Assembly (NCBI RefSeq): GCF_039555335.1
Contig: NW_027305502.1
Span: 1,075,001-1,139,000, forward strand
Source of the DNA: Amphiura filiformis
Taxonomy: Eukaryota > Echinodermata > Ophiuroidea > Amphilepidida > Amphiuridae
Length of the DNA stretch: 64,000 nucleotides
Direction: 5' to 3'
The translations under genes and the position numbers were made by a program. The notes below the pieces were generated by a model. The model had not been told where the DNA came from. It did not search any database and worked only from the letters and a program-made list of their open reading frames with translations. Positions 298 to 33,926 of the stretch are shown here, piece by piece (position 1 is the first letter of the stretch; each line of letters starts with the position of its first letter).

Positions 298-443
298 TTT
301 TCAGATGTTTAAACTAAATCATCAGATTGTTGATGACACTGAAGCTGTTGCTATGGTAGCCAAAGATGTTGTGAGAGAGTTTGCAGAAGATGGAGTTCGT
401 TACTTGGAGCTGAGGAGTACGCCTAGGGACGTGCCACAGACAG
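298..443 (+). CDS. ADAL: ADAL copy 1, exon 3
   Basis: Acceptor ttatcag, donor GTAGGG. The exon enters with one base of a split codon and leaves with one. It encodes FQMFKLNHQIVDD through YLELRSTPRDVPQT. The ATG at 305 is an internal Met, aligned with the Met of CFQMF in copy 2, and is not a start. An alternative acceptor (tttcag) lies 7 nt further on. A repeat element begins only 6 nt after the donor. Confidence 0.88.
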
Positions 444-3400
444 GTAGGGTTAACCCTAACACTGACCCATGCTTTTTGGTATCGGGAGTCAGAGAAGATC
501 CGAATTTTTCAAGAAGAAGAAGAATTTTGACTTGGCACCCCGGATTCAACCTTTGACCCCTCGCATGCCAAGCTTAACGATCGCGGACCGGTAGCTGCTC
601 ATGTTATTGCTGCCCGCCAGCAATTCCGTGAGCATATCACACTTCGGTGATTAAGCGCCATCGCAGACCCTGGGATGCATGCATGTTATGAATTTTTCAT
701 CGTGGTATTTTGTGGTTTTTACTGGTGTTAGGGGTAATGGACACTCTAATCTGGAAAAATACATCTTTTTTAACCCTAACACTGACCCATGCTTTTTGGT
801 ATCGGAAGTCAGAGAAGATCCGAATTTTTCAAGAAGAAGAAGAATTTTTGACTTGGCCCCCCCCCCCCCCCCCGGGATTCGAACCTTTGACCCTCGCATG
901 CCAAGCTGAACGATCGCGGACCGGTAGCTGCTCGGGTTATTGCTGCCCGCCAGCAATTCCGTGAGCATATCACACTTCGGTGATTGCGCATCGCAGACCC
1001 TGGGATGCATGCATGTTATGAATTTTTCATCGTGGTATTTTGTGGTTTTTACTGGTGTTAGGGTTAATGTAAATTTGCAGCAGTCCCATAAATTATTTTG
1101 ATTGCAGGGTAATATAATATTGGGTGATTGTCACACCGTCATTGATGCAGTTCTTGGATTGGAAATCCAAAAATCTTCCACACTTTTTCCATGATTTTGA
1201 ATAAAAATGGTTTGAGCTAAAATGGTCCAATCTGTTGAATTTTGTTTGACATCAAAAATCTCCTACATGTATAGCAGCTGTGTGAATATCAAATAAATTA
1301 ACCCAATGTGCTATGGATTATAAGACCTATATCAGCTCATACTAAATTGGATAAAGACTAAGGAAGCAATTGCCAAATAGGGTGCAACTCTACTAGTCAT
1401 ATTGCAAGACTGCCCTACCCCAACCCTAAACCCTACCCCTAAACGAGGACTGGACTCAAGTCTAGCAAGTTGCACCCTATTCAGTAATTGTACCAAACTA
1501 AGTAGATGGGTAAGTGAGAGTGTCCGCATTGGGCTTTTCCAATTGAATTCCACACACCCCCTGTGGAAACAGGGCCTCAGATCCAACGAGAATCACAGAA
1601 TCGATTCTCGTAATGATTCCCGTAATATTTGTTGCAAGAATCAGTTTCTTTCATTGAATCATGCATGCAGTAAGTAAAGCGACTCAGATGGTTTTTTATT
1701 TCTCGCAAACTGGCACGAAATTGAGGTCCTGGGAAGACATGACCTTGATCTTCCACACAGGGAATATGAATTTCAAATGGGAATGACTCCATTTGAAATA
1801 TACACCTCTACAAGTAGTATGGGAGGTTTAACAAGATAAAGGGGTGCATGGATTTCAACTGGAATAGGCCATTCATTGATAATACCTCATCCAAATCACA
1901 ATAAAATGAAAGGAAGGAAACATGCAAAACTTGCCAATTCAACAAGAAGAAATCATATTTTTTTTAATTGTTCAAATTATATTAATGTATTCTAGGTATG
2001 ACAAAACGGAGCTACATTGAAACAGTACTGAAAGCTATTCAACAGTGTCAGGAGGAAGGAGTAGACATTATTGTCAGGTAAAAACATTAAGAGGCAAAAA
2101 TAGAATAGTGGAATCAGTAAATGCTAACCACAGTCCTGCAGTTCTTGCCAGCTGTAATAATGGAATCAGTAAATGCTACTAACCTCTGCAATGTGGAGGG
2201 CTAACCTCAGTCCTGCAGTTCTTGCTTGCTGTAATAATGGAATCAGTAAATGCTACTAACCTCTGCAATATGGAGGGCTAACCTCAGTCCTGCAGTTCTT
2301 GCTTGCTGTAATAATGGAATCAGTAAATGCTACTAACCTCTGCAATGTGGAGGGCTAACCTCAGTCCTGCAGTTCTTGCTTGCTGTAATAATGGAATCAG
2401 TAAATGCTACTAACCTCTGCAATGTGGAGGGCTAACCTCAGTCCTGCAGTTCTTGCTTGCTGTAATAATGGAATCAGTAAATGCTACTAACCTCTGCAAT
2501 GTGGAGGGCTAACCTCAGTCCTGCAGTTCTTGCTTGCTGTAATAATGGAATCAGTAAATGCTACTAACCTCTGCAATGTGGAGGGCTAACCACAGTCCTG
2601 CAGTTCTTGCTTGCTGTAATAATGGAATCAGTAAATGCTACTAACCTCTGCAATGTGGAGGGCTAACCACAGTCCTGCAGTTCTTGCTTGCTGTAATAAT
2701 GGAATCAGTAAATGCTACTAACCTCTGCAATATGGAGGGCTAACCACAGTCCTGCAGTTCTTGCTTGCTGTAATAATGACATCAATAAATGCTACTAACC
2801 TCTGCAATGTGGAGGGCTAACCACAGTCCTGTAGTTCTTGCTTGCTGTAATAATGGAATCAGTAAATGCTACTAACCTCTGCAATGTGGAGGGCTAACCA
2901 CAGTCCTGCAGTTCTTGCTTGCTGTAATAATGGAATCAGTAAATGCTACTAACCTCTGCAATGTGGAGGGCTAACCTCAGTCCTGCAGTTCTTGCTTGCT
3001 GTAATAATGGAATCAGTAAATGCTACTAACCTCTGCAATGTGGAGGGCTAACCTCAGTCCTGCAGTTCTTGCTTGCTGTAATTATGGAATCTACCAAAAA
3101 AACGTTGACAACGTAAAGAAAGCAGCAAGTTTAAAAAGCCCCCACCTCGGCTCACTTTTTGAAACTTGGTCCCATTTTGAATATCAACAGCAAATCGGTG
3201 TTTTTTAGCATCATTGCCATTAACATGCCTACTTGTTATTCGTTTAATTCAATCATTGATCATGAACTTTATTATTATAAAACAAAACATATATGGTCGC
3301 ATGTCATAAGTTGGGTACAATTTCCATTACATGGTCAAAAATGACAAAAAAATTATTTTTTGTTATGTTGTATATATTGACAATCTCTAATCATTAACAC

Positions 3401-6400
3401 CATTTTTAACCTTAACACATGCTTAATTTTTGAGATAATGCTTAATTACTAATCAATTAATACACAGGCGTCTATGTAAATCTCAATTTTCAAATGTGTT
3501 TTTCTCAAATCGGACCTCAATTACAAAAATGACTGTAAAATTTGTATTTTATGCAAGAATGTCATCAGATTTGGAGGATATGTTCTCAATACATTAATGC
3601 TTCAAAGCTCTTCAAATGAACCATTTAAAATAATTGTACATATGTTAATTACATTGTGAAGGTCAATGACCTTTTATGCGTAATTAGCTTAGATGATTAT
3701 TTTATTATTGAGGAAATGAATATCAAGAAAAGAAATGTACATTAGCATATTGCTAAAAATACTGAAATTCAACTACATTGTACATGTAGGATTTCATTAA
3801 ATATGAAAAAAAATGGAACATATAACCCTTTAAGGTGGTACTACACACCTTGATAAATTTGTGACTATTTTTGCATTTTTCTCAAAAAATAATATCACAC
3901 TGGTAACAAAAGTTATATATATTATACTGGGTAAGGAATCCAGTTACTACACTGGAATTTCAGTGACTCAAGACAAGCGGTACGTTATTTATGATAAGAA
4001 AAGAGGTACCGCTAGAATGTACCTCATTTCTTAACATATATAATGAACCCCTGGTCTTGAATCACTGAAATTTCAGTGAAGTAATTGGATTCCTTGCCCC
4101 TATAATATAGACCCCTACATATATCTTTTGTTACCAGTGTGTAGTTACTTTTTGAGAAAAATACAAAATTAGTCACAAAATTTATCAGGGGGGTGCAGTA
4201 CCACCTTAAGTAGTCAGTAATTGTTTTAGTTGTACAAATTCAACATTCAAAGCTGTCAATACATCATACCCTCCCTAGATTTGAAAAAGTAACCAGTAGT
4301 TTTGACATGCTGACATGCGAATTTTCACATAGGCCCTATTTGCACACTCCCGCATCCGCCTGCTCCACATCCGCCTGCTCCTCCACCCCTGGCATTTTTC
4401 ATTTCAACTGATGTAATTTGTTTACTGAATAATGTATAATTATATGCTTCAGTAGACTGAAAGAGTATAATATTAGGCTTAAAATGAGGTATTAACCACT
4501 GCTGTAGGATATGGGGTTACGGAAAGCCAATCAAATTTGTATCACAATTTTCAGAAAAGTGTAATCCCTCCACCCTTTTAGCATACCCAACTTATGACAT
4601 GCGACCATATAGGATATTGGCCAAGAATAACATAATAACCTTTCTGATCGTTCCAGAATGCTAACAACTTTTAAGTAATATATCGCATCGGCACATTAAA
4701 GATTCATAACACTTCTGGAAATGTTTTAAGTTGATAATTATGACAAAGTTTAAATCAGTATCTTTTACAAATGGGACCAAGTTTCAAAAAGTGAGCCGAG
4801 GTGGGGGCTTTTTAAACTTGCTGCTTTCTTTACGTTGTCAACGTTTTTTTGGTAGATTTCCTTTTTTTTATGAATGAAACCGAGTAGCTCCAAGCTTGAA
4901 AAGTCATCCGTTACGAAGTACTCCATAAGACGAATAAAGCGAAAAATAGAAGTTTGAATAATATTATCCTTGATTTATGACAATAAAAAATACGAGTATA
5001 TGAAGCTATACCTATAACTAAAATGTACGTGGTTCTTTGTAGCACTGAGGCAATCTAGTTGGATATCCAAATTTCGCCGTTTGTGGTTCTTTGTAGCCCT
5101 GCAGGCAATCTAGTTGGATATCTCTATTGAGCGGCGGTTGTTGGCGGTCTTTCGCGGTTCGTGGTATTCCTTTATTCTTCAAGCCCTGTCCTCTATCGGG
5201 GCTAATTTATTGTTTAACCATGTTGGATATCCATATTTCGCTCTGTGTGGTTCTTTGTAGCCCTTCAAGGGCAATATAGTTGGATATCTCTATTGAGGTG
5301 GTTGTTGGAGGTCTTTCATGGTTAGTGGTTATAATTTTCCTTATCCTTCAAGCCTTGCCCTCTATCGAGGGCTAATTTATAGTTAAAACTTGTTGGACAT
5401 CCATATTTCGCGGTGTGTGGTTCTTTATAGCCCTCTGGGCAATCTAGTTGGATATTTCTATTGAGCGGCAGTTGTTGGCAGTTTTTCGCGGTTTGTGGTT
5501 TTAATTTGTAGGATATCCATATTTCAAGATTTGTGGTTCCTGAGTCCTGCGGGGCAATCTAGCTAGATATCCAAATTTCGCGGTTTGCATGGTTCTTTGT
5601 AGCCCTGCGGAGTTAAAACTTGTTGGACATCCATATTGAGCTGCAGTTGTTGGTGGTTTTTCGGGGTTTGTGGTTTTTATTTGTTGGATATCCATATTTC
5701 CGGTTTGTGGTTCTTTGTAGCCCAAGGGCAATATAGTTGAATATTTCTATTAAGCGGCAGTTGTTGGCGGTTTTTTCGCGGTTTGTGGTTTTAATTTGCA
5801 GGATATCCATATTTCAAGATTTGTGGTTCCTGAGTCCTGCGGGGCAATCTAGCTGGATATCCAAATTTTGCGGTTTGTGGTTCTTTGTAGCCCTGCGGGG
5901 CAATCTAGTTGGATATCCCTATTGAGCGGCGGTTGTCGGCGGTCTTTTGAGATTTAATTTTCCCTTTAATTTCGGGCCGCCCCTCCTCTCCATCCCGAGG
6001 ATGCTTTTCAATAATTTAAATTATACGGTGTCAAAAATTACTATTCCTTGGTATAATTTATCTTACCATGTTGACTTATATTGTTTGTTAAGTCAACTGG
6101 ACGTGACAAAATATCCTGCTATGTAGACATTAATTTGTTTCTAAATTGACTTGGCATAATAATTTATTTCGCGAAGACGACGTCCATTTTTGGTATGTCG
6201 ACTTGGCATGATAATTTATCTTGCCATCTTGACTTGTTTGTTCATTTGTCTTGGCGAGATATTTTATATCGTCATGTTGACATAATGCTGATAATAAGTC
6301 GACATGGCAAGATAATTATCTTGTCAAGTTGTGTCACATAGACGCTTCCGTACTATGCTTGATAAATGTTATTTGGAGATTTTTTTCCTGCTGGCCTTCC

Positions 6401-9400
6401 ATACTAGCGGAACAATTTTCCACACCTACAGAGTGTTTGTAATCAACCTACCGGGACGATATGACAATTTTCATGTTCTACGATAGCTGAAGATGACAGA
6501 GAGTCAGGTCTCTTAATCGATTCAACAACCATTCATACATATCACAATCATCATTGTCCTATTATCATGCGAATTTGCCCGTGGTAGGACAAAATATATT
6601 TAAATGAGAATAACAATGAGTAACGCTCTTATTGCCTGATCTGGTTTCTTGTGTTATTCAGATTTCTTTTGATCCTTGATGGTGTTGTATCACATTATGC
6701 TGTGTTTTTAAATAGGCCCATAACACAATAAACAATTTCCATGAGAATCAAACAACTTGCTTTAATAAAAAAAAAAATATCACAATAGCACTGGATGTTT
6801 AAAATTATGTTATCCTTGATTAATGACAATAAATTAGTTAATAAAACATTGAAAAAAAAAATGAGTTGGTCACCGGGTTTCAACTCGGATAGCGTATCTG
6901 GAGTCAAGCGCACTAACCATTAGGCCACGGACCTCTGCTGTAAATTACTCTGTCGAAATACAGCATTTATTATATAAATGGATGCGTCGTCCGATAAGAA
7001 CAAAAGAATTGTGAAAAACTTGATTTTTTGGCGAATGGGGCTCAGAATTTGTATGTAGGGTATCCAAGAAACTGCTAGGGTATATTTGGAAGTGAATCTG
7101 AAAAAGTAGTGTGAAGGTGATAACCAGGTAGACCTGTAGCAGTGTCCAAAAATTCTGGATCAGTATGATTTGCAACTAATTTTCTCTTATTCTTGAAATA
7201 CCGCGTGAAATGGAAGCAAAAATATTTGTTTATTACGAACAATGATTGACTGTAGGATTGGTGGCCCTTTTGGAATTAATGAGTTGTCACGATATTACAC
7301 CTGGGACTGTAAATAACATTTAGCATGGTTTTAGATACATTTTGTACCCAGCGAAAAATAACATCGAACAATAGAAGTCAAGTGTTTTAATGTTACGTGT
7401 AAATATAGTCTCGCGGGAGCATCTGTTATTAGTCTTCTTTATCAGTCTTTTTTTTTTAAAAACTTGCTGGTCACGGCTACCGCGTGACTCTAATCAGTAA
7501 ATGCTACTAACCTCTGCAATGTGGAGGGCTAACCTCAGTCCTGCATTTCTTGCTTGCTGTAATAATAGAATCAGTAAATGCTACTGACCTCTGCAATGTG
7601 GAGGGCTAACCTCAGTCCTGCAGTTCTTGCTTGCTGTAATAATGGAATCAGTAAATGCAACTAACTTTCAGCTAATGTTGAGTGTCCTAGTTTGTATGGG
7701 ACTGTGCCTGACAATGATCCTATGTAATAATTATTATGCTAGATATACAAATCTGTGTCTTAAAAAAACAGTGTAAGTGATTGAGAGGAGAAAATGAGAG
7801 AAAAATCAAGAGACATTTGGGGTGAGAAATAGAGAACAAAATAATTTCTCAATGTAAGGGTATTATAGACAGGGTTAAATGGATGATAGAGGATGGTGTG
7901 TTTTCTTTCTCAACAGATTTATCTTAGCTATAGACAGAAGAAACAGTTTAGAAGCAGCTGCAGAAACTATCCAATTAGCAGAGGAATACAGGGCTAAGAG
8001 TGGAGGCATTGTTGTAGGAGTTGACCTCAGTGGAGATCCTATGGTATGAAACAAGCACAAATCACACCCCTACACCCCCCCCCCTCACACACACCACTAT
8101 CCTTGTTGATTGTATTGATTGTATATCCAAACAAGGACTTCTGAAACGATGTTTAATCAACATACCAAGGACCAAAATGGCAGATTTTGAGCAGGGGCGT
8201 AGCTAGCTTTTTTGGTGGGGGGCAGCAAAAAAGATTTTGGGGCACAGACAAAAAAATTATTTTGCAATATTTTCGGCCATTATCAGGCCTTTACAATGTG
8301 CAAAAAATGTTGTATTTTACACTATTTTGGCCCATGATCGGGCTGTATTTCGGTAGAAAAGGGCTCCTTGCCCCTTTTCTTTTCCTTTGCCCTCCTGCTT
8401 TTCTCTTTTATTTTTTGTCAGAGGGGCACTTTTGTCTTTCATTTTTTGTCAGGGGGGCACTCTAGGGGCCAAACCTCACCCCTACAAAAGGATTTGGGAT
8501 AGGGGTGATAAAGGAGATGTTAAAAGGGCGCTGCACTGCTCCTTGTCCACGGACCCAGGGCCCTGAGGCTCTTGCTTGTGTCCACTGTAACGTGAAGTGT
8601 ATTATGATCTATGTCCTCAGTTGCAGGCATAAAAAAAGGCATTTGTAACATTGCATCCACTAACGCACATGGTGTGCAGAACCGACAATTCAGGTGCAAA
8701 CAGTGTGTTTCCACACGCTCTTTTTATATGCAATTTTTGACGCTCAATTTTGTGTCTGTTGGACAAGATCAATCAAAAGTAGAAAACAAGACTATTGTCG
8801 TTGGACAGGAACAACCTGCTATGTGTCATTGGCCCCTGAACATGTTTAAAGCAAAACTGCCTATGTAATCTTATGGCAGTTTTGTTTTAATCATGTTCAG
8901 GGGCCACAAGCACATAGGAGGGTTTTCCTGCTTATCAGCGCTCTTTTGTTAGGCATGTTGAGTGCCAAGTTTATTTCCTGGCAATATGGTCCATTTAAGA
9001 TGACAAAAGTGTTTGGGGGTAGCCCTATTGTGGTAATTGGCCCGCAAGAAAATGATGGGGGTCGGCCCATTGGCCCCTGTTCTGGAGCCACTGTATAAAA
9101 AAAGTCAAAGGCCATTCATTGTCTGGCCATTGGGTCCTGTTGACCATTGACTTCCATTACAAATAATAAGTTACCGTAATAGTACATTTTAGATGGTAAG
9201 TACTATACTGTTTCTTGATTCTTATATCAAGACGAACAATTTTCCACCATTTTTACCAAAATCAGAGCAAGTTGAAATTTTTACCCCTGTGTAACCAAAA
9301 ATGTGTTCTTTTGACCCCAAAATGAGGTTTTTGTAAAATAATTCTGTAATGATACATTTTTGAATTATTTGTGATCGGACGAATAATTTGGTATATCTGT

Positions 9401-12400: not shown

Positions 12401-15283
12401 TTTCTTTGTGAAGTTACATCAATTTATCAATCGCTGAAAACAATATGAAGCAAAAGAATAATAACACTTTCTTTGTCAATAATTCAAAATCAATATTAGA
12501 GACATCCGACTCATTTCCCTTGATCGTGTCACATATTCATTCTTCTGCAGGTTGGTGATGCAAGGCAGTTTATTCCATTATTACAGCAAGCAAGAAATGC
12601 AGGTCTGAGGTTAGCCCTACACATTGCAGAGGTGAGTAGCATTTACTGATTCCGTTATTAGGCAATAGAAACAAATAAGTATGATCTTTCGATCGACCAT
12701 CGATGTTTGGTAGAAATATGGTCACGGTCGGATTGCATACAGCTGTTGGCAACTACGTTCATTAAATGAGATTTTTACTTTAGAGTTAGGATTATTATAG
12801 GTCACAAAGAGATTATGATGTTGACACTAGGGTTTGGGCAAAGATTACTCAGAACTCTTGCTGCCCCTGTTGCCCCCCAGAAAAAGCCAAAATTACGAAA
12901 ATTTCCCCTTTTGCTGTAATTTTGGGCAAAATTTGTTGATTTTGCCATCCCCTTACTTTTCCCCTCTAATGCCCCCTCCCGAAAAAATTCCTGGCACCGC
13001 CACTGATTATAGTTAGATGGTGACCTCAAATTGCTCATAAATCAGATTTTTTTATCATACCGTATGTTGCTCTAAAATCGGATTTGTTATCATTCCATTT
13101 GTATTATCCTAGAGATGCCATCAAGGAGTAGAGAGTCTGGCATTACTGAACATTCCCACAGACAGGATAGGCCATGGGACATTCCTACATCGGGTTGAAG
13201 GGTCACAAGAATTGGTGGCAGCAACAGAACTTCACAACATTCCTTTAGGTAAATATTTTGTGCTGTTATCGGGCTATTCCATTTGAAATCCACACTACCC
13301 CTGTGGAAGATTTTGGAAATATCTTCCACAGGGGGTATAATTTTAAATGGAATTTAAACTGATAGGCAGCTCCATTTGAATTTCATACACCCTCTGAGAA
13401 AGATTCAACCTGAATCTTCCGCAGAGGAGGTGAGTTTCAAATGGAGCTGCCTAATGCTAATTCCATTTGAAATTCATACTCCCTCTGTGGAAGATATTTC
13501 CAAAATCTTGCACAGGGTTAGTGTGGATTTCAAATGGAATAGCCCATTTATTCCACAAAGCAAAATATCTTTTGTTAATAGGATAGAGGAGTGTTTGGGT
13601 GAATCATAATTGTTCAGACACAGGCACTGTGTACGAACAGCCAGGTGGTCCCCCAACTGGAACTGACTATGAGGTCTTTGTCATCCTATGTTTGCCAGGG
13701 AGTTACCCTGATTGAAATTGGCTTTGAGGTCTTGGGTCATCCAGTGCATCTGCTGCACAGTTCAGTTTAATATCTTTCATTTAAAGAGTATGCACAGCTA
13801 CAACAAATACCGTTAAGATTTGCCTAATGGCGCACTTGGGCTCCTTTGCTTTGGGGGTACATTTCATTTGCAAATAGAGAGCTCCCTCCACTAAAATCCC
13901 AACAAGAATTACGATTCCATGCCCTTATTTGCTGGTGGGAATTTTACAGGCGGGTACTTTTAAGTTGTGCCTAAAATTCTACTTATGTCAAGTGAACCCA
14001 TAGCGCCATTAGGCGAATCTTTACGGTATGGGCCTTCAAAAGCGAAATGAAACATTTGGTTTTTTCACTTGCAGAATTATGTCAAACAGCCAACCATATT
14101 AGTAAGTCAGTGCCATCATATGATCAGCATCATTTCAAGTATTGGTATGACAAGGGACATCCGTGTGTTTTTTGTGTGAGTACCATGTTTTCATTTAATT
14201 TTACATCACTTTATCCATTTAAATAAGCATGATAGGCAGACGTTAAAATATACAGTCTAGATCAGTGCTCCAAAATGATGGTGGCACCATAGAACCATTA
14301 TAGTGGGAATGAACACAGCTTTGAATAGCGTGATGATTTTTTTGCGTACACTGCCCGATGTACGCCAGCATGTGCAACTTTGCGTAACGCAACCATGCCA
14401 ACGCACTCGTGATTGGTTAGCATTGTATCTAAGGTCGTGCGTTCGCGTTGTAGTTTGAAATATGCAATGTACGATCGCGGTTGAAAGCTGCATTCATTCA
14501 ATTGGAATTCCTACTATAATACAGACTATTTATCAACAGTCAAAGTGCCTGTGCTTAATGCTGTGAATTCTCGCATATTTAAAATATAAATGAATACACA
14601 ACATTCAGGAGCATGAATGGGTTAACTACAACCTAAAGAATGTAATTGTTAAAGCCAGTGTCTACTCTAATACAGGGATGGGCAACCTACGGCCCATCTA
14701 TATACAAATATTGTGTGATGTGTGAGACCTAGTTGAGAGAAAAGTGAATTTCAAATTTGAAAGTGTCTTTATTCAAGACAATTTTGTGATCATCCACCAC
14801 AAATGGACTATTAAGTCGGCATTATCTCTTTTTGAGTTATCGGGATGCAAATTTGCCTTTGCCAGTCCTTTAGATCTTACATCCTCTGATCAACCTTCCT
14901 TTTACGCGCTACTAAACCAATCATAGGGAGTTTGATTGACAGTGATATTGGACGCAAACTAGTCTTTTAAATTCCCTATTGAATTATATAATGCGACATG
15001 TGCATGTGTTTCTAAAACAAGTTTTTCAGGTTGGAAGGGATGTGAAACATCAAATAATGTTTTTATTATGCTTGTTTTTTTCACTTAACAGACAGACGAC
15101 AAAGGAGTTTTCCACACCACCCTAAGCAAAGAGTACCATCTTGCCATGACGACCTTTGACATTAGCAAAGAGCAACTGTGGCAACTTTCTGAACGGAGCA
15201 TAGACTACATATTTGCCGATGACAATGTCAAGCAGACTCTGCGTAAACGTTGGAACGATGAGAAGTCAAAACTACTGGTGTAA
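298..15283 (+). CDS. ADAL: ADAL/MAPDA-type adenosine deaminase-like gene, copy 1 (exons 3-9, 5' end outside window)
   Basis: Seven exons (298-443, 1996-2077, 7917-8043, 12551-12631, 13113-13248, 14075-14175, 15092-15283) join in frame to a TAA stop. The translation follows the N6-methyl-AMP deaminase (ADAL) branch of the adenosine deaminase family, which deaminates N6-methyl-AMP to IMP in the cytosol (family knowledge). Visible motifs, in order: YLELRSTPR, VRFILAIDRR, VDLSGDP, ALHIAE (metal His and catalytic Glu), DRIGHG, ELCQT, DQHHFKYW and TDDKGVF (metal/catalytic Asp pair). Exons 1-2, with the HxH motif, must lie left of base 1. All introns are GT-AG, and no stop or frameshift is seen from exon 3 onward. 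Compared with copy 2 it lacks one codon at the start of exon 3 and one in exon 7, and the first residues of exon 7 (RCHQGV) replace the family-like IPDQEA. It is probably functional, but that depends on the unseen 5' exons. Confidence 0.9.
449..1068. repeat. Two tandem copies of a ~300-bp inverted-terminus element, with tRNA B-box-like sequence
   Basis: Copies at about 449-745 and 768-1068 are near-identical. The pair starts TTAACCCTAACACTGACCC and ends GGTGTTAGGGTTAA, an inverted terminus. Each holds, on the - strand, a match to a tRNA T-arm (GGTTCGAATCCC in the second copy), preceded by GTTCAGCTTGGCATGCGAGG. This suggests a tRNA-related SINE module. A C-run interrupts the second copy. It lies in intron 3 of ADAL copy 1. 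Confidence 0.6.
1530..1871. repeat. Foldback MITE, TTCCATTTGAAATTCATAC family (diverged)
   Basis: The ends are inverted (GGGCTTTTCCAATTGAATTC against GATTTCAACTGGAATAGGCC). A second internal inverted pair has CCATTTGAAAT and TTCCACACAGGG words. It is related to the nested palindrome at 13271-13545. It sits in intron 3 of ADAL copy 1. Confidence 0.6.
1996..2077 (+). CDS. ADAL: ADAL copy 1, exon 4
   Basis: Acceptor tattctag, donor GTAAAA, 82 nt. It encodes GMTKRSYIETVLKAIQQ through the first two bases of an Arg codon completed in exon 5. It is nearly identical to 26086-26167 in copy 2. Confidence 0.9.
2108..3091 (-). repeat. 77-bp minisatellite made from ADAL exon 6 plus its 5' splice site, antisense, 12 full units
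   Basis: Units of exactly 77 bp start at 2158 and repeat without length change to 3081. A shortened first unit lies at about 2108-2157 and a 10-bp stub at 3082-3091. Read on the - strand each unit is GATTCCATTATTACAGCAAG through CACATTGCAGAG, then GTTAGTAGCATTTACT. That is the last ~60 bp of ADAL exon 6 followed by the start of intron 6. Units differ by a few substitutions (cctcag/ccacag, atgtgg/atatgg). The array is in intron 4 of copy 1, opposite in orientation to the gene. Confidence 0.95.
3091..4855. mobile_element. Long foldback element with 87-bp inverted termini
   Basis: Bases 3091-3177 and 4769-4855 are exact or nearly exact reverse complements (CTACCAAAAAAACGTTGACA at the left end). 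A second inverted pair lies inside at 3290-3317 and 4584-4610. No transposase ORF lies between. It hosts the MITE at 3830-4209. Confidence 0.85.
3830..4209. mobile_element. TTAA-bounded foldback MITE, GGGGGTACTACACC family, copy 1
   Basis: It starts TTAAGGTGGTACTACACACC and ends GCAGTACCACCTTAA. Internal arms are also inverted (CACTGGAATTTCAGTGACTC). The same family occurs at 15893-16232 and 31012-31368. Confidence 0.8.
5028..5950. repeat. Degenerate tandem repeat block (GGTTCTTTGTAGCCC / TTGGATATCC words)
   Basis: At least eight irregular copies of a module containing ggttctttgtagccctgcgg, caatctagttggatatcc and gagcggcggttgttggcggt. Spacing varies from about 55 to 170 bp, so units are mosaic rather than a clean satellite. 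No coding potential is recognised. Confidence 0.75.
6048..6335. repeat. Degenerate GTTGACTTGGCAAGATAA-type repeats
   Basis: Repeated palindrome-like words (gtcgacttggcatgataatt, atcttgccatcttgactt, ggcaagataattatcttg) recur about every 40-60 bp. This looks like an old inverted or tandem element. Confidence 0.5.
6868..6933 (-). pseudogene. tRNA-like sequence (Trp-like CCA anticodon loop), degenerate
   Basis: On the - strand it reads GGTCCGTGGCCTAATGGTTA (A-box-like), then TTGACTCCAGA (anticodon loop like tRNA-Trp CCA), then GAGTTGAAACCCGG (B-box lacking the conserved TTC). Only part of the acceptor stem pairs. A tRNA pseudogene or SINE head is more likely than an active gene. Confidence 0.4.
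7491..7658 (-). repeat. Continuation of the exon-6-derived 77-bp minisatellite (two units plus a partial)
   Basis: Unit joins fall at 7563 and 7640, again 77 bp apart. The first unit starts at unit position ~7 (aatc), the same point where the first array stops at 3091. The two arrays were therefore one before a 4.4-kb insertion split them. Confidence 0.9.
7917..8043 (+). CDS. ADAL: ADAL copy 1, exon 5
   Basis: Acceptor ctcaacag, donor GTATGA, 127 nt. It encodes (R)FILAIDRRNSLEAAAET through GVDLSGDPM. The final codon is ATG (Met) where copy 2 has AAG (Lys). The conserved DLSGDP segment is intact. Confidence 0.92.
8195..8520. repeat. GGGGCGTAGCTAG / GGGGGCA-type dispersed repeat
   Basis: Starts gcaggggcgtagctagc and continues with gggggcagc, then C/T-rich cttttgccctcc and gggggcactctaggggcc. 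Related G-rich words occur at 12.83, 16.5, 22.97, 35.1, 56.1 and 57.25 kb. Intron 5 of ADAL copy 1. Confidence 0.45.
8819..8918. repeat. Foldback hairpin (GGCCCCTGAACATG)
   Basis: tgctatgtgtcattggcccc with aacatg is mirrored by catgttcaggggccacaagc with acatagga, around a loop near 8868. Short MITE in intron 5 of ADAL copy 1. Confidence 0.7.
10031..11587 (-). CDS. Non-LTR retrotransposon reverse transcriptase (ORF2 C-terminal part)
   Basis: 518 codons. RT blocks in order: FRPVSNLPFLGKTIE, an AFDTVDH metal-binding motif in LDLSAAFDTVDHNIL, GLPQGSVVGP and the catalytic SYADDTQLYV. A C-terminal HWLPIRQRIVFKLMLLTYKA segment typical of CR1/L2/jockey-like elements follows. The frame enters from upstream without a true Met. 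The stop lies before the 3' UTR. Confidence 0.9.
   Translation of the reverse strand: MTCDDVLDIIKKSRVKTCSLDPLPACLIKDHLQCLLPSITAIVNASLNSGTFPTPLKQALVTPLPKKANLDVEDLKNFRPVSNLPFLGKTIERAAVSQLQGYIKNNNLYNQTQSAYRQFHSVETAIVRVTNDLLNAVDTHGEAILILLDLSAAFDTVDHNILLHRLKTRSGVKGTAHQWFASYLEKRQQSVVIESERSNPTDLDWGLPQGSVVGPEMFVIYSAPIEDIIKEHGMSSISYADDTQLYVLIKPSNRDSALDKLANCIEDIRLWMTENKLMLNNSKTELLHVTSRSARNVPNVDITIGNSTITPSKEVRDLGVILDKGLTMSAHINAVCKNASYAIYRIGKLRRYLDAENTEKLIHSFVTSRIDNCNSILYGLPDKELNKLQRIQNTAARVVTLSRKHDHITPVMVQLHWLPIRQRIVFKLMLLTYKALNGEAPVYISDLITTYQPSRTLRSASQYLLQEAPAKSKTYGRSFSVAAPRLWNRLPLAIRNSQTTSQPKSTPKTHLFNEAFNN
11584..12400 (-). pseudogene. Retrotransposon endonuclease C-terminus and linker, frameshifted from RT
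   Basis: The frame holds WGFQF before the Met at 12372, then THKRGHTLDLLITR and GLPSDHFAVECSV. These are the last blocks of an APE-type endonuclease; the SDH triplet carries the catalytic Asp-His. The ORF ends in a stop at about 11584 while the RT continues one frame over, so one indel near 11590-11610 broke ORF2. The N-terminal endonuclease is absent. Confidence 0.78.
12551..12631 (+). CDS. ADAL: ADAL copy 1, exon 6
   Basis: Acceptor ttctgcag, donor GTGAGT, 81 nt, phase 0 at both ends. It encodes VGDARQFIPLLQQ to ALHIAE, which holds the metal His and the catalytic Glu. The last ~60 bp plus ~17 bp of intron are the source sequence of the 77-bp minisatellite in intron 4. The intron here starts with the remnant of another unit (gattccgttatta) before diverging. 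Confidence 0.92.
12830..13015. repeat. GGGGGGCA-rich MITE fragment ending CACCGCCACTG
   Basis: The right end (CTGGCACCGCCACTG) mirrors the CAGTG(T/G)CGGCGCCA end of the element at 35119-35310, and inner words match (aaattacgaaaatttcccct, gggcaaaatttgttgatttt). The left terminus is missing. Intron 6 of ADAL copy 1. Confidence 0.55.
13113..13248 (+). CDS. ADAL: ADAL copy 1, exon 7
   Basis: Acceptor tatcctag, donor GTAAAT, 136 nt (139 in copy 2). It encodes RCHQGVESLALL, then DRIGHGTFLH and the start of the split Glu of ELCQT. The first six residues have drifted from IPDQEA. The frame stays open across the one-codon deletion after TFLH. Confidence 0.88.
13271..13545. mobile_element. Nested palindromic MITE (ATTCCATTTGAAATCCACAC)
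   Basis: The outer arms (GGGCTATTCCATTTGAAATC / GATTTCAAATGGAATAGCCC) enclose a second, independent palindrome (AGGCAGCTCCATTTGAATTT / GAGTTTCAAATGGAGCTGCC). The two share the TCCATTTGAA word, which suggests self-insertion of one family. Intron 7 of ADAL copy 1, 22 nt after exon 7. Confidence 0.8.
14075..14175 (+). CDS. ADAL: ADAL copy 1, exon 8
   Basis: Acceptor cacttgcag, donor GTGAGT, 101 nt. It encodes (E)LCQTANHISKSVPSYDQ, HHFKYWYDKGHP and CVFC. It corresponds to the family's ELCxTSN and DQHHF segments. Confidence 0.92.
14690..14960. repeat. Diverged copy of the ATAATCAAAGAC MITE family
   Basis: gatcaaccttccttttacgc and gggagtttgattgacagtg followed by actagtcttt match the inner right half of the MITE at 26582-26969. 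The left boundary is unclear. Intron 8 of ADAL copy 1. Confidence 0.5.
15092..15283 (+). CDS. ADAL: ADAL copy 1, exon 9 with stop
   Basis: Acceptor cacttaacag, 64 codons including TAA. It opens with TDDKGVFHTTLSKEYHLA, carrying the Asp pair that binds the metal and acts in catalysis in the ADA family. It continues through SERSIDYIFADD to a Lys/Arg-rich C-terminus. Confidence 0.94.
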   Translation, partial: TDDKGVFHTTLSKEYHLAMTTFDISKEQLWQLSERSIDYIFADDNVKQTLRKRWNDEKSKLLV

Positions 15284-17319: not shown

Positions 17320-17644
17320 TATATTTGACCAAGATAGAGCTACGAAAGACCCTTGATTTTGATAATTTCAGCTCTAAAAGACCCCAAATTGCTCATTCCT
17401 CGTATTTCTGGGTTTTTTTTCTTGCGATTTTAAACCAGAAAGCCAAGAAAGACCCTTGACCCCTTTTACCGGTACGCCGTCAGCTCCCAAAGACCCACCA
17501 CCTCAAAATTCCGTGGGGAACATACCCACCAAAATTGTTTGATGTGCCCCCCCCTCCCCCCGGGTGTGGTCAAACTATAAGACTCATTCTGAAATAATCC
17601 CAACTAGACATAGCCTCAGCTAGTCGTCAATGGCTTTAAAAATA

Positions 17645-19087: not shown

Positions 19088-19150
19088 ATGGCGACTGCGT
19101 CAGAAGAACATGTGTCTGAAGGAAAGTTTTGTAAACTTCTTCCAAAATTG
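19088..19150 (+). CDS. ADAL: ADAL copy 2, exon 1
   Basis: ATG in context aacaaaaATGG, 21 codons, donor GTAAAT. It encodes MATASEEHVSEG followed by KFCKLLPKL. The ending joins in phase 0 to ELHAH of exon 2, which rebuilds the LPKxELHAHLNGS motif of the family. That join supports this distant exon, 5.1 kb upstream of exon 2. Confidence 0.85.
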
Positions 19151-28100: not shown

Positions 28101-31100
28101 CTCCCTCCTAGTAGAAGTGAAGTCCATGGAAGACAGCTGTTAAATGCAGTCAGTATCTCCAAATTGCGTGCACGCACAAGCAGATTTGCTGAAAGCCCCA
28201 TTCCCTACTACATTAATCTGTTGAATAAGCAGTAGTAGCTTGTGTGCTGGTGGCTTCCCATTGTGCCCTTTAGCATCTCTCTGCTGTTTTTCCATGCCAA
28301 GTTGCCTTTTTTCTTTTTTGCTTTATAATTATGTAATTGATTTCTTTCATAATATTTGTTTATTGTCTCTTGTATAATGCAATTCGGCCGTTTGTCCGCG
28401 ATATTGTGCAGGTTAATAAAATCATATCATATCATATCATACCAAGGACGTTTCCCACCATTTTGTGTGTGTAGGTGTATGTGGTGAAATTTTACCTAGC
28501 AACTGTGGATGGTATAACTAATGTACGACAGAGGACATGTCTCGCAAATGCATTATACATGCAATTGTGATCATTTGCAAATATCCTAGAACCAAGGACA
28601 GTCTGCTGTTGAAGAGAGGTCCATGGTTTAAATGTGAAATATCTTGAGAATTTCCTGTTAGACTGTAATTCTTGGCAATATGGTCCATTTAAAATGACAG
28701 AAATAAAATTGGAAAACTTTGAGATTTTTTGCCCAAAATAGTGAGTTTTCTGTGCTTTGTTTTTAGTTCTAAGTGCCGTCAACAGGGCAGAGGGTAAATG
28801 TCCCCTCTCCATGCTGCTGCCAGTTTTCACATCTGACCCAGCATTTCAACATACCAAATTTGTCAATATTTTTTGAAAGGGCATGTCTCATAATCCCAGT
28901 CTATTGATGAACAATGAGCATGACAAGGTCTTGTAGGTGTGAATTTACACTGTCTAGATACTTGGACAAGAAAGGGTACTGTTACAAGTTGCCCGAAGCG
29001 TACACAACTTTGAACTGCCAACAGGTTAATGGCAGATTCAAGGCCTAACATGTTTCAGTTTACCGTTATTATTTTTCTGCAGGTTGGTGATGCAAGACAA
29101 TTGATTCCATTATTACAGAAAGCAAGAACTGCAGGACTGAGGTTAGCCCTCCACATTGCCGAGGTTAGTAGCATTTACTGATTCCATTATTACAGCAAGC
29201 AAGAACTGCAGGGCTGAGGTTAGCCCTCCACATTGCAGAGGTTAGTGGTATTCAATTAAGATATTATTACATATCAAATGTATGTAGGTTTCATTCTATG
29301 TACATCTGGATAAGTAACTCCATCCAATTTAGAGTACTGCTTTGTAATACAAGTCAGAAAAAATATTTTGAGGCATGTTTGCAGAGTGGATGAGTGGGGG
29401 GGGGGGCAGAAATTGCCACCCCTGGCTCAAAAATAGCGGGAAAAAATTGACCAAATTTTATAATGTGCATTTTGGTCCATTTTAGCATTATAATTTTGGC
29501 ACACATTGTATTAAGCCACTTGCAGGTTCCGCCATTATGCACTATGTGCGGGAGAGCCTCGAACTGGCAGCATACATGAATGGGAATTGAACCAGTCATA
29601 TAACATTCTGTGTAAGGTTACGTAATTCTTCCTTTGATGTATGCTGCCAGTTCGAGGCTCTCCCCGCATATAGTGCATAATGGCGGAACCGTGCAAGTGG
29701 CGAATTGATAGTCTTTAGTAGTGGGTCTGTGGGACAGAGTGAAAATTTTCTGGCTCGGTGGTCCAGTACACCTAATCTACGCCGGTTTGATTCTGTTCAC
29801 TGCAAGCCGTATATAAAAAGCTTAATTCTTACATGACCTATTCCAGAAGCAGATTAGTGTTTGGACAAACATTGCAAACTGGACTTTTACCAAAATTGAG
29901 GGTGCATTTTTTTTTTACACAATGCCCCTTTAAGCGGAATTTACACTAGTGACGAGTGATTAGTTTTTAGCAAATAAGGTAGAGCCCTTCTTTTTACATT
30001 AGGAAAAATGTGCCAGCTGGATCATTGTCAAAAAATCAGCTACTCGTCACTTAGCGATGACGACCGCTATTTTATAAAGTTCGAATCCGGGCAGATGCAC
30101 TGTTGTGTTTTGTTTGTTTTTCAACGTTAATGTGTCCTGGCTGCTTTTGGTAAAGATTAAAATTCATTATTGTACCATTTGCATTATCCTAGATTCCTGA
30201 TCAAGAAGCAGAGAGTCTGGCACTGCTGAACATTCCCACAGACAGAATAGGGCATGGGACATTCCTACATCCTGAAGTGGGAGGGTCACAAGGACTGGTG
30301 GCAGCAACAGAAAATCACAGCATTCCTTTAGGTAAATATTTTGTGCTGTTTTTGTTGTTCGTATGTTGAGATAGAGTAGTGGATTTTGTGTGCTTTTTTA
30401 ATAGGGTGAAAAAACAGTTAATTGTTACCTTGACGGGAAGTGGATATGAGGTCTTTATGATACACTGCATTGTGAGGGGTTATACCTGTTCGGAACTGGG
30501 TATGAGGTCTATGTCATCCACACCTTTGTTTCCAATGGACATTTTATTGTGAAATGTCATTGTACAAGCAATACATTTAAAAAAAATTCACATACCGCCC
30601 GCATGAAATTATTTAATTATCTTTGTAATCACTCAAAAAGCATTTTGTGTGAATTTTACATCCAAACTAAGTGCTATTCAATTTTTATGGGCCTTTTTAT
30701 TTTACATGTAAAGTCTATGGGGTGACAATTAGAAATGGACGGCAATATTGAAAAACCCTCATTTTAGGCCATTTTAGACACTAAAATGCCCATAAAAAAA
30801 GAATAGCACTTAGTTTGGATGTAAAATTTACACACAATGCTACCTGAGTGAGTACAAACATAATTGAATACATTTCATTCGGGGGCTAAAGCAAAAACAA
30901 AAAATGTCCTATACCCTAAAGTCATAATGTACGATCTTTTTTCAGAATTTACCTTTATTTTTTTCAAAACCGATTTTTTGGCATATTTGTAATACTTACA
31001 CATGTTCTAACTTAAGGGGGTACTACACCCCTGCCCAATTTTGTGCCCATTTTTGCATTTTTCTCAAAAATATAGCACATTGGGGACAAGTAAGATATGT

Positions 31101-33926
31101 ATATTGTAGGGGCAAGGACTACAACTACTACACTGGAAATTTTGTTTCAGCGCAGACAACAGTTGTGGAGTTACAGTCAAAAATGAGGAAAACCAATATT
31201 TGATCAATAAATCAATAACTACTTGCTTTGAGTTGCTGAATTTTCAGTACAGTAGTTGTAGTCCTTGCCCTATAATATACATATTTTACTTGTTACCAAT
31301 GTGCTATAATTTTTCAGAAAAATGCAAAAATAGGCACAAAATTGGGCAGGGGTGTAGTACCCCCTTAAATCTATGAGCAAACTGTCAAATTAAGTCCTAT
31401 TTGTAGTAAAAGCGGGATTTATTTTCTGTTGGTCCGACATAAAGTCATAATTTTAGATTATGACTTTATGTAAACCACGATCATAAACCGTAGTCTCGTA
31501 CAAAACTAGCTTGGTTACGCTCCTTGCACATGTGGAGGGAGGCGTAACCAAACTGGCCGCGTGGAGACTAACTCTGAGGCCGCACTCGCTGTCCTAATTC
31601 CAAATAGTGCGAGATGTTTGAGTGATAGAGGTGAAGTTTATGATGTTGTTTCTTTGCAAATTCCCAATGTTTTTCGGCGTCCAAATGTATTGGGAACTTT
31701 CATAATGATTGCATATTATCATTTTAGAAGAAAAAAAGAAAAATCTAAAAATTTAAAAAGATCGTACATTAAGGCTTTAATGGTTATGGAACAAAGGTGA
31801 TCCAGTGCATTTGCCAGAGGTTTGCTTGATCAGAACTGGCTATAAGGTCTTTGTCATCCAGTGCCATCCACTGTAACTGCCAATTCAAATGCATTTTAGT
31901 ACTTATTTAATGTCATAATAGAGATTTGGTGCAGGCTGCTGCGCAGCTAACACAAATGTGCGCCCTCAAGAGCTAAATGAATACATTTATTTTGTCGCTT
32001 ACAGAATTATGTCAGACATCCAACTTTGTTGGTAAGACCGTAGCATCATTTGATGAACATCATTTCAAGTATTGGTTTGACAAGGGACATCCGTGTGTGA
32101 TATGTGTAAGTACCATGTTTTTGTGGACTATAATCATAAAGACCAGTTTAATGTTCTGATGCATGGCTTACCAAACCTTTTTTTCCTGTGTGTGGCCCAA
32201 ATTTTAAAATCTTTCTTATCAGAGGCATACCAGGCAAATTTTTTTAATTTTCACTTCCCATAATGCATTTCTCTCATTTTAATTTTCTGTACTAATTTGC
32301 TATCTAGTGTAACATAGGTCGATAGTGACAAAATGTACCTCAATGAACAGAGCACATCCAGTTCTTGCAAAGTATGTTTATTTCATGACTATTAGTGGGT
32401 TTTTAGGGGTTTTGCCGTTGGACAAGTTTAGAACTGTCAAGCTTTCGTCAGGAGCAGCTCTGACTTCTTCAGGACAAAGTACTTAAGAATCAGATATGTT
32501 GGCCTTCCCTTGCCTACTGATGGCTCTGAAAAGAGCTGTTCACTGAAGACTGTCCCTTGTCAACAGAGAACAAGCAGATCTCGCCTATCTGCTAATTTGA
32601 AAAGTTTGGTAGATCTGAAAAGAGCTGTTCACTGAAGACTACTGCCCCTTGTCTCTTGACTGTTGACCCATGTTTAGCCAGTCCATTCACAAAATGAAAA
32701 CAATGGGAACCTGTACAAAGTAATGAGAATGTTATTTGATGAAATGAAGTGATGTAAAGGATTCTGGGAAGGGTAAGATATCTTCTCTGTGCAGGTCTTT
32801 AGTCTGAAAATCTATGAACCCCATCAATTTTGACAGCTTTTGGCCCTAGAGGGTGCCTTATTCCTAACACTGTATGTGGGTCTGATCCAAGACACATCCC
32901 ACCTGTATAATAACCTCTTTAATGCAAGAGTGATACCCTTCATTCCAACCAATATTGAAACAGCAATCCCTGTTGGGGGCGTTAATAAAGGGGTGTGTGT
33001 GTGTGTGTGTTAACTGACAGTTTCAGGCGGGGACTTTCATTAGGCTAATGAAATAAAATGATAAGTTTTTTTCATTATTGCCAAAACTTTCATTTATATG
33101 ACTATTACCTATATTGTAAATGAAAGACCATCTCAAAACAGATCATCATTACAGACATTTTGCAATAGATTGAGAAAAGATTTGAATTTGTTTTTATTAA
33201 AATGAAAAGAAATTTGCAATTTTTGTAATCACTAGAAACATGATGAGGTAATCCTTAAATTTCCATTATTTACTACATCCTCTACCCCTACAACTAAGAA
33301 AAACTGCCGATTATGATCAGCAGGGGATGTCAGACATTTTGAGAGTTTCAATTTTGATTATTTCCATCTCAATTTTCAGATAATTGACTTTTTTATGAAA
33401 ATAAAGAAAGTTTTGGTCAAATTGAAAAGGTGATGAGGGTGGGTGATGGGAAACTAAGAATCAACTTTCATTAGCCGTAGGCAACAAAATAAAAAAAACT
33501 CCTCTTCTATGGGCCTGACCTACTCAGATTTTAAAGAAATTTGGGGGAAAATCTCCTGTACAAATGAATGCCTAAACATATTCTGTATTCCAAAATATTG
33601 CAAACAGATTTTGGTTATTTTTCAGGTCATTTGAAAAAAAAGAAAATTTGAAATGATATACGTCTGCCTGTAGAACAGGTTTTTTTTTTTCCATCACCTT
33701 ATGGAAACTGATTTGTTCTTATTTCACTTAACAGACCGACGACAAAGGAGTTTTCCACACCACCCTAAGCAAAGAGTATCACCTGGCCATGATGACCTTT
33801 GACCTTAGCAGAAAGCAGTTATGGCAACTTTCCGAACGGAGCATAGACTTCATATTTGCAGATGATGATGTAAAGCAAACTTTACGTAAACATTGGACCA
33901 ATGAGAGGTCAAAATTGCAGCTATAA
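19088..33926 (+). CDS. ADAL: ADAL/MAPDA-type adenosine deaminase-like gene, copy 2 (complete, nine exons)
   Basis: Exons 19088-19150, 24223-24380, 25377-25525, 26086-26167, 26996-27122, 29083-29163, 30193-30331, 32005-32105 and 33735-33926 join in frame. They total 1092 nt and encode 363 residues plus stop, close to the ~355 residues of vertebrate ADAL. The start ATG at 19088 is followed by G (favourable context) and its exon encodes FCKLLPKL, which splices to ELHAHLNGS exactly as the family motif requires. Active-site residues visible: HxH at about 24/26, His/Glu of ALHIAE at about 217/220, His of DRIGHG at about 241, and the Asp pair of TDDKG at about 302/303. Known family role: deamination of N6-methyl-AMP to IMP in purine salvage. 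It lies 3.8 kb downstream of copy 1 on the same strand, so this is a tandem duplication. No lesion is seen. Confidence 0.93.
19323..19543. repeat. Inverted-end element (ATATTTCGAGGTGCA)
   Basis: atatttcgaggtgca at the left mirrors tgcacctcgaaagatat at the right. An adjoining perfect palindrome-like hairpin (aactcagtccctcaaatgat / atcattgaggactgagtt) occupies 19552-19623. Confidence 0.55.
20212..20640. mobile_element. MITE with ~40-bp inverted termini (ATACACATGTCACTTGTATG)
   Basis: The left end ATACACATGTCACTTGTATG with ACCCACCCTA is mirrored at the right by TAGGGTGGGT and CATACAAGTGACATGTGTAT. The interior is a degenerate run of gcgtca/agtca words. No ORF. Confidence 0.82.
21060..21235. repeat. 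Inverted-terminus repeat (GTAGTCCACTTG / CAAGTGGACTAC), also present inverted at 60388-60545
   Basis: The segment from gtagactaccccgtagtcca to cccaagtggactac reappears reverse-complemented at 60388-60545 with near identity. A further inverted match joins 22600-22700 to 60275-60360, so 60275-60545 looks like a deletion derivative of a longer element spanning about 21060-22700. Confidence 0.7.
23296..23460. repeat. Partial copy of the TTAAAGG(A/G)G..TTTCGTGATCC MITE
   Basis: aaaggaggatttcatgatcc, then tttttatgacatttttcagt and gtgtattacacgcctccatg, parallel the left half of 38143-38480. The right half is missing. Confidence 0.6.
24223..24380 (+). CDS. ADAL: ADAL copy 2, exon 2 with HxH metal-binding motif
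   Basis: Acceptor gtgaaaag, donor GTGAGT, 158 nt. It encodes ELHAHLNGSISKETMTKLL, then a Gln-rich variable stretch, ending at SLDA split across the junction. The two His of HAH are the first metal ligands in this family. The exon is short, has no Met start of its own, and was recognised from the motif. Confidence 0.92.
25377..25525 (+). CDS. ADAL: ADAL copy 2, exon 3
   Basis: Acceptor tttcatcag, donor GTAGGG, 149 nt. It encodes CFQMFKLIHQIVDD through YLELRSTPRDVPQT. Three nt longer than copy 1 at its 5' end, in frame. Confidence 0.92.
26086..26167 (+). CDS. ADAL: ADAL copy 2, exon 4
   Basis: Acceptor tattctag, donor GTAAAA, 82 nt. It encodes (G)MTKRSYIETVLKAIQQ through DIIV and a split Arg codon. 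Confidence 0.93.
26582..26969. mobile_element. MITE with 43-bp inverted termini (TATAATCAAAGACAG) next to ADAL copy 2 exon 5
   Basis: 26582-26624 and 26926-26969 are inverse copies (tataatcaaagacagaatta; the rest includes aaagactactttgcatctga). The interior has a long T-run. It ends 26 nt before the exon 5 acceptor, so it supplies the branch-site region of intron 4. Confidence 0.85.
26996..27122 (+). CDS. ADAL: ADAL copy 2, exon 5
   Basis: Acceptor gtcaacag, donor GTATGA, 127 nt. It encodes FILAIDRRNSLEAAEET through GVDLSGDPK. A MITE ends 26 nt before the exon. Confidence 0.93.
27123..29082 (+). other. Intron 5 of ADAL copy 2
   Basis: Holds CCGAGGAC-type words (27.2-27.5 kb), a retrotransposon relic (27545-28441), and sequence colinear with intron 5 of copy 1 (ggcaatatggtccatttaa at both 8978 and 28674). 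Confidence 0.65.
27545..28441 (+). mobile_element. 5'-truncated non-LTR retrotransposon relic with (ATATC)n tail
   Basis: Carries the C-terminal part of a reverse transcriptase in three frames: NHLKLNPDKCQAIQI, then VLGIFIQQDLKWDAQVDHM, then VGYIRPLLEYSDANW and VQKRACRIILG, then SRSEVHGRQLLNA and IPYYINLLNKQ ending at a TAG (28235). At least two frameshifts (about 27825-27845 and 28065-28075) make it dead. A 3' UTR and an aataaaatcatatcatatca tail follow. It differs from the CR1-like copy at 9.7-12.4 kb. Confidence 0.82.
29083..29163 (+). CDS. ADAL: ADAL copy 2, exon 6
   Basis: Acceptor ttctgcag, donor GTTAGT, 81 nt, phase 0 both sides. It encodes VGDARQLIPLLQKARTAG to ALHIAE. A partial duplicate of this exon with its own donor follows directly (29178-29247). 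Confidence 0.93.
29164..29247 (+). repeat. Sense duplicate of ADAL exon 6 end plus 5' splice site (one 77-bp unit)
   Basis: Directly after exon 6 the intron runs gttagtagcatttactgatt, then repeats the end of the exon to CACATTGCAGAG and a second donor GTTAGT. Inside the unit, ttattacag at 29187-29195 is acceptor-like. The 45 nt at 29196-29240 could therefore be a cassette exon encoding QARTAGLRLALHIAE. Confidence 0.88.
29515..29701. mobile_element. Foldback MITE with ~70-bp arms (GCCACTTGCAGGTTCCGCCA)
   Basis: The left arm GCCACTTGCAGGTTCCGCCA...CTCGAACTGGCAGCATACAT is mirrored almost perfectly by the right arm ending CGGAACCGTGCAAGTGGC. Intron 6 of ADAL copy 2. Confidence 0.85.
30193..30331 (+). 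CDS. ADAL: ADAL copy 2, exon 7
   Basis: Acceptor tatcctag, donor GTAAAT, 139 nt. It encodes IPDQEAESLALLNIPTDRIG, then HGTFLHPEVGGSQ and SIPL plus one base of Glu. It holds the conserved His of RIGHG. Confidence 0.93.
30603..30879. mobile_element. Foldback MITE (TGAAATTATTTAATTATCTT)
   Basis: The left arm contains ttacatccaaactaagtgct; the right contains agcacttagtttggatgtaa; the outer ends continue as an imperfect inverse. Intron 7 of ADAL copy 2. Confidence 0.78.
30921..31780. repeat. Inverted-end element (GTCATAATGTACGATCTTTT) enclosing a TTAA MITE
   Basis: 30921-30942 is mirrored by 31755-31780 (aaaaagatcgtacattaagg). Internal palindromes occur near 31440 (cataaagtcataattttaga) and 31510-31555 (ttggttacgctcc / ggaggcgtaaccaa). 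The MITE at 31012-31368 is nested within. Confidence 0.55.
31012..31368. mobile_element. TTAA-bounded foldback MITE, GGGGGTACTACACC family, copy 3
   Basis: Same termini (TTAAGGGGGTACTACACCC / GGTGTAGTACCCCCTTAA) and the same inner words (TTTTTGCATTTTTCTCAAAA). It lies in intron 7 of ADAL copy 2, inside a larger inverted repeat (30921-31780). Confidence 0.85.
32005..32105 (+). CDS. ADAL: ADAL copy 2, exon 8
   Basis: Acceptor cgcttacag, donor GTAAGT, 101 nt. It encodes (E)LCQTSNFVGKTVASFDE, then HHFKYWFDKGHPCVIC. Confidence 0.93.
32255..32790 (+). repeat. Copy-1-3'UTR-like segment inside intron 8 of ADAL copy 2
   Basis: Matches 15417-15695 either side of an inserted ~270 bp (about 32390-32660). 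The insert holds two direct copies of ctgaaaagagctgttcactg about 90 bp apart. Confidence 0.78.
32990..33012. repeat. (GT)n microsatellite
   Basis: ggggtgtgtgtgtgtgtgtg run in intron 8 of ADAL copy 2. Confidence 0.9.
33735..33926 (+). CDS. ADAL: ADAL copy 2, exon 9 with stop
   Basis: Acceptor cacttaacag, 64 codons including TAA, same length as copy 1. It opens TDDKGVFHTTLSKEYHLA and ends SKLQL. Confidence 0.94.
   Translation, partial: TDDKGVFHTTLSKEYHLAMMTFDLSRKQLWQLSERSIDFIFADDDVKQTLRKHWTNERSKLQL

Follow-up and report, generated by a model that had tools for sequence, protein, structure and literature searches.

Intron 4 of the first of two tandem ADAL-like gene copies in Amphiura filiformis harbors a tandem array of 77-bp units, each of which repeats in reverse complement the 60 bp that end exon 6 and the 17 bp that open intron 6, the 5' splice site (donor) included. 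The array is real and its structure unusual, none of the observations demonstrates an activity, and it is most likely neutral. The window mentioned below is the whole stretch of DNA analyzed, 64 kb in length.

Results

The two ADAL-like copies lie in tandem on the + strand, with spans of 298-15283 (copy 1) and 24223-33926 (copy 2). Both encode an A_deaminase domain (PF00962; E 2.2e-37 in copy 1 and 3.3e-39 in copy 2) and this domain, together with close relatives so named, places them among the ADAL / N6-methyl-AMP deaminases. For copy 2, the only one compared with solved structures, the best match was 8qch 'Adenosine deaminase-like protein' (E 2.1e-97), which we take to be the human protein; exons 2-9 of this copy, once spliced, give 342 amino acids contained exactly in P0001, the NCBI model 'N6-Methyl-AMP deaminase-like isoform X2 [Amphiura filiformis]'. 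Over the exons inside the window, the final exon borders (Table 1) yield the NCBI proteins exactly. Exon 6 is 81 nt long in both copies with phase 0 at either end, in line with the in-frame length given by the initial annotation, and the Glu at its end is presumably the catalytic Glu of adenosine deaminases. Divergence between the copies over exons 3-9 amounts to a dS of 0.297 with a dN/dS of about 0.26 (approximate values, exon 3 having been taken 7-10 nt short), hence both copies look maintained.

NCBI isoforms X2 (P0001) and X4 (P0002) bear one product name and draw their exons from both copies. X2 consists of 21 N-terminal residues common to the two models followed by copy 2 exons 2-9, and X4 of copy 1 exons 3-8, matched exactly, followed by copy 2 exon 9 (63 of 63 residues, vs. 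51 of 63 for copy 1 exon 9), while exon 2 of X4 lies outside the window. Both models omit the open exon 9 of copy 1 and an exon 1-like stretch at 19088-19150; as the latter matches only 18 of the 21 common residues, the first exon shared by X2 and X4 is probably located upstream of the window. The isoform numbering suggests to us that the copies are regarded at NCBI as alternative exon sets of a single gene, and the two models, representatives of two clusters with seven member sequences, would fit a mutually exclusive use of the internal exons. Exon 6 has normal borders in both.

Divergence is patchy along the copies: the two exons 5 show no synonymous difference over 27.7 sites, while dS reaches 0.69 in exon 9, a pattern that perhaps reflects gene conversion beside the array. 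Directly after the exon 6 Glu, copy 1 exon 7 starts with RCHQ (13113-13130), where copy 2 and 8qch have IP(D/N)Q; two sea stars carry IPN at this site and the crinoid P0118 carries RTN, so that the Arg of copy 1 is not unique. Between the ADAL copies, a 182-bp repeat occurs three times in tandem at 17644-18191 (98% match).

Table 1. Coordinates within the window of the array, the related units, the insertion and the exons discussed in the text.
Feature	Position	Strand	Remarks
Copy 1 exon 4	1996..2077	+	
Copy 1 intron 4, host of the array	2078-7916	+	
Edge unit of the array	about 2104..2166	-	Shortened by about 25 bp
12 full 77-bp units	2167-3090	-	Antisense to the gene, constant length; unit-by-unit alignment
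Perfect 90-bp inverted repeat	arms 3088-3177 / 4769-4858		
Putative Helitron-like insertion	3090..7493	+	TC at the 5' end, hairpin and CTAA at the 3' end; flanked by A and T
Continuation of the array	7494..7682	-	Full units 7495-7571 and 7572-7648, edge remnant
Copy 1 exon 5	7917..8043	+	
Copy 1 exon 6	12551..12631	+	Donor GAG/GTGAGT
Copy 2 exon 5	26996-27122		
Copy 2 exon 6	29083..29163	+	Donor GAG/GTTAGT
Copy 2 extra 77-bp unit	29164-29240	+	17 bp intron-like and 60 bp exon-like
Copy 2 intron 6 start past the extra unit	29241..29269	+	Differs at 9 of 29 positions from the segment that follows the first donor
Copy 2 exon 9	33735..33926	+	Final exon in both X2 and X4

Tandem Repeats Finder placed the main block of the array at 2123-3091, with a period of 77, 12.6 copies, 97% match and no indels, values that agree with an intronic minisatellite (head-to-tail tandem units of some 10-100 bp). 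The initial annotation, which had described twelve units of constant length antisense to the end of exon 6 and the start of intron 6, was thus borne out, and with two further units downstream copy 1 intron 4 contains 14 antisense units of full length. A 40-mer of the unit, allowing up to three mismatches, matched 15 times in the 64 kb vs. 0.00 expected, 12 times in the main block, twice at 7542-7658 and once in an extra unit of copy 2. Three joined units gave no BLAST match in copy 2 intron 4, which equally upholds the earlier statement that this intron is devoid of an array. Neither BLAST nor the 40-mer search returned unit copies outside ADAL within the window, so that, on the scale of these 64 kb, the units do not resemble a dispersed satellite more than they resemble exon 6. 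Remnants of further units beyond the array edges or exon 6 were not recognized, seven local alignments between the unit and these flanks (100 or 101 bp, once 25 bp; p values from shuffles) being all non-significant, with p from 0.06 to 0.98. Exact matches to a 23-mer of the unit were absent from viral contigs and matches to 231 bp of the array from plasmids, results of little weight given that neither collection is expected to contain it.

The mean divergence between units, 2.5%, is lower than the 3.22% heterozygosity of A. filiformis (PMC11310086, in excerpt), and the array is accordingly young or homogenized. The 14 full units carry 15 changes with respect to the coding frame of exon 6, 11 nonsynonymous, 2 synonymous and 2 intronic, or 7, 1 and 2 when variants common to several units are counted once. 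At the mean change rate of the array, 1.4%, about 1.8 changes would be expected in the nine donor columns and one was found in 126 cells, which indicates no clear extra conservation of the donor; overall, the changes give no apparent sign of constraint. The variant at column 36 is common to five consecutive units, an adjacency predicted by tandem expansion, and recurs in the shortened unit at the far end. A role of the array as coding sequence or as a structured RNA was rejected, five units folding at -93.1 vs. a shuffled mean of -95.1 (s.d. 6.3, 30 shuffles). Rfam gave no match at gathering score across the window, and the two matches to miRNA models that came up with a lax threshold, both of them sub-threshold, fall within the insertion described below.

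The array is interrupted by an insertion of 4.4 kb, whose removal rejoins it in phase, with 65 of 66 bases equal to the unit. Published hallmarks of Helitrons are a TC start, a CTRR end preceded by a hairpin and an insertion site between A and T (PMC4778049, in excerpt), and the ends of the insertion present all of these and accord with an integration that duplicates no target, although not exclusively, a 4-bp AATC duplication describing the same junctions. The hairpin GTCACG...CGTGAC (6-7 bp, -9.6 kcal/mol) stands just before the 3' end; by the same rule, 23 of the 425 CTRR/T sites in the window have one. No RepHel transposase, a feature of autonomous elements only, was recognizable, the insertion containing no ORF longer than 76 aa, and the element would be non-autonomous. 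We assign it to Helitron-like elements with moderate confidence. The insertion starts with most of the first arm of a perfect 90-bp inverted repeat, the second arm of which is internal; its ends are not mutual inverted repeats, and a TIR DNA transposon was discarded as its identity. Tandem repeats of 170/290 bp occupy 5058-5948 within it.

Other repetitive or mobile sequences are present in the window. An ORF with reverse transcriptase similarity (RVT_1, E 5.8e-28), presumably of non-LTR type, lies antisense in copy 1 intron 5 (10031-12372, - strand), and an ORF upstream of it in the same stretch has no Pfam match. By eye, several long and near-identical direct repeats were seen at about 40800-53400, where a stretch starting CGCACACCACTAAATAATC recurs. 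An inverted pair of 153 bp with 99% identity (21066-21218 and 60384-60536) may stem from a short mobile element present twice.

The extra unit of copy 2 lies directly 3' of exon 6 and brings a second GAG/GTTAGT donor 77 nt from the first. Its use would add VSSIY and an in-frame stop; P0001 splices from the first donor. Compared with the array consensus, copy 1 has 4 differences in 77 positions (95% identity), the first unit of copy 2 has 2 in 77 (97%) and the extra unit has 1 in the 60 exonic positions, or 6 in 77 when the intron belonging to that unit is included. The 29 bp that follow the first donor of copy 2 equal the array and differ from the copy 1 intron at 2 positions, vs. 9 from the intron that follows the extra unit, while the intron 6 starts proper of the two copies differ at 11 of 29. 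Two differences or fewer in 29 have a P of 0.0099 at a neutral difference of 26%, and the segment after the first copy 2 donor may therefore have been transferred from a copy-1-like sequence. However, intron starts vary widely between the copies (6 to 16 of 23 positions matching in six introns) and aligning the intron 6 starts of copies 1 and 2 gives a shuffle p of 0.065 (0.54 past 29 nt), which makes the argument a lean and not a proof.

The direction of copying appears uncertain on these data, since the exonic distances point to copy 2 as the nearest relative of the array and the intronic part points to copy 1. The units are indeed exon-derived, antisense and intragenic, and the idea that the array is a satellite of its own gene is plausible, though over the 77 bp the consensus stands nearer to copy 2 (2 differences vs. 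4). In copy 1, two 12-bp repeats ATTCC[A/G]TTATTA, alike at 11 of 12 positions, start at 12572 and 12649, a spacing of exactly 77 bp, and would make a natural seed for the unit; the one past exon 6 coincides with a non-significant local match in the 100-bp flank (p 0.06). We favor a history in which copy 1 exon 6 would have given rise to the array and the array, in turn, to the extra sequence of copy 2.

Discussion

The array is probably a by-product of DNA rearrangement in the duplicated ADAL locus, neutral in its effects and spliced out with intron 4. The 77-bp stretch across the exon 6/intron 6 border, delimited by the 12-bp repeats, would have reached intron 4 as an inverted copy, and the unit would then have expanded by unequal exchange or slippage; copy 2 exon 6 may subsequently have received one unit by exchange. 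The insertion, putatively a Helitron-like element, splits the array in phase. In normal splicing the array would be removed along with its host intron and affect splicing weakly at most. Copy 1 exons 3-8 are all present in X4, hence that model removes intron 4 and the array and keeps exon 6. As a counterpoint, 14 near-perfect antisense units of an exon and its donor are what an RNA-pairing regulator needs.

Such a regulator, by analogy with known systems, would require a single transcript over both copies, in which the array would mask the exon 6 donor, mainly that of copy 2, and bias the choice of exon set; we consider it unlikely. A probe of three units forms a duplex of -300 kcal/mol with exon 6 of copy 2 and of -165 with that of copy 1, against shuffled means of -77 and -54 respectively (30 shuffles each) and the -75 to -81 obtained for exons 5 and 7, and the longest perfect complement to the array is 52 nt in copy 2, across the splice site, and 25 nt in copy 1. 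The copy 2 donor GAG/GTTAGT is matched perfectly by 13 of the 14 full units, whereas the +3 base of the copy 1 donor is matched by none. The masking proposed by the initial annotation, which concerned the donor of the host copy, would therefore be the weaker version, as both this mismatch and the duplex energies favor copy 2. The two isoforms, with their first 21 residues and last exon in common and different internal exon sets, would suit such a choice. On the other hand, the units bear no sign of constraint, and the presence of exon 6 with normal borders in both X2 and X4 argues against a strong block by the array. Exon 6 moreover lies downstream of the main block by about 9.5 kb in copy 1 and 26 kb in copy 2, and downstream of the two-unit part by 4.9 kb and 21 kb respectively, distances at which intron 4 may be spliced before the targets are made.

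The closest precedent is the 38-bp VNTR in intron 6 of human TERT, for which exon skipping driven by pairing was established by compensatory mutation and at least nine repeats are needed (PMC3948165, in excerpt). Like that VNTR, the ADAL array is a long tandem repeat deep in an intron, with more than nine units and, by duplex computation, complementarity to a distant part of its own pre-mRNA. The excerpt does not describe the TERT repeats as an antisense exon copy, which the ADAL units are; these, at 77 vs. 38 bp, also span a 5' splice site, and their pairing is computed from the sequence whereas that of TERT is backed by compensatory mutation. Docking-site/selector pairing of the Dscam type, which serves mutually exclusive exons, likewise joins duplicated exons with complementary intronic sequence (PMC6071210, in excerpt), and a comparable competition is conceivable at ADAL, although here whole exon sets are concerned, the complement covers an exon and its donor, and 14 units take the place of a single docking site. 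A stricter version, a self-sparing switch in which one transcription unit would include both sets and the array would mask the set 2 donor, spare its own through the +3 mismatch and so favor set 1, seems to us very improbable.

That the array arose as the interior of a mobile element carrying a captured piece of exon, instead of by a local event, is also quite improbable. The Helitron-like element does touch the array, and in the oyster the Cg_HINE elements, which are Helentrons, carry satellite-like arrays (PMC7492417, in excerpt), so that both cases combine short tandem arrays with rolling-circle transposons. In the oyster elements of that excerpt, however, the array is inside the element, whereas at ADAL array sequence lies on either side of the element and closes up in phase once this is removed, which puts the element inside the array, and the unit is exon-derived. 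The lack of unit copies beyond ADAL in the 64 kb likewise speaks for a local event.

Pairing between array and exon 6, or antisense transcription, might alternatively feed siRNAs or piRNAs directed against both copies. In Drosophila, the antisense Su(Ste) repeats act on Stellate from a separate transcribed locus that produces piRNAs, and, like the ADAL array, they consist of units in tandem whose sequence is antisense to a coding paralogue; unlike them, the ADAL array is intronic and has only 77 bp per unit. Systems of this type thus exist, and 14 full antisense units, with a consensus that shares 95% identity with copy 1 and 97% with the first unit of copy 2, would be a suitable source, but both copies keep intact exons and their dN/dS of about 0.26 speaks of maintenance, and such a role is highly unlikely.

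An effect of the units in sense orientation, as a cluster of decoy branch points, is similarly hard to credit. Read on the sense strand, units show TACTAAC, at once the reverse complement of the donor GTTAGTA and the branch-point consensus of yeast, followed by CTAAC and CAG, and of the 17 occurrences of TACTAAC on that strand of the window, against 5 on the other, 12 lie at 2101-3091 and one at 7492-7690. Tandem UACUAAC repeats of Gomafu bind SF1 and alter splicing kinetics in vitro (PMC3116199, in excerpt), which offers a precedent. Most CAG sites of the array nonetheless score 2.2-2.6, whereas the exon 5 acceptor reaches 16.8 (13.6 leave-one-out), on a small matrix built from 15 acceptors; as 2 of these 15 true acceptors score lower still (1.7 and -6.7, leave-one-out), the weak scores are compatible with use, but exons 4 and 5 are joined normally in X4. 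The donor-like site of the array scores 1.4 vs. 3.0 to 9.5 for true donors (leave-one-out), and with such scores, from so small a matrix, the case for a poison microexon or an acceptor decoy is weak.

A literature search returned, in the titles and opening lines of abstracts among the matches listed, no antisense exon-derived array within its own gene, which does not prove that none has been described. The ADAL array represents an unusually clean natural case in which to ask how RNA-pairing splice regulators like that of TERT could arise, with two related targets of clearly different fit in a highly heterozygous species. If neutral, the locus still documents the inverted duplication of an exon fragment, the growth of a minisatellite, the insertion of a transposon and the exchange between paralogues.
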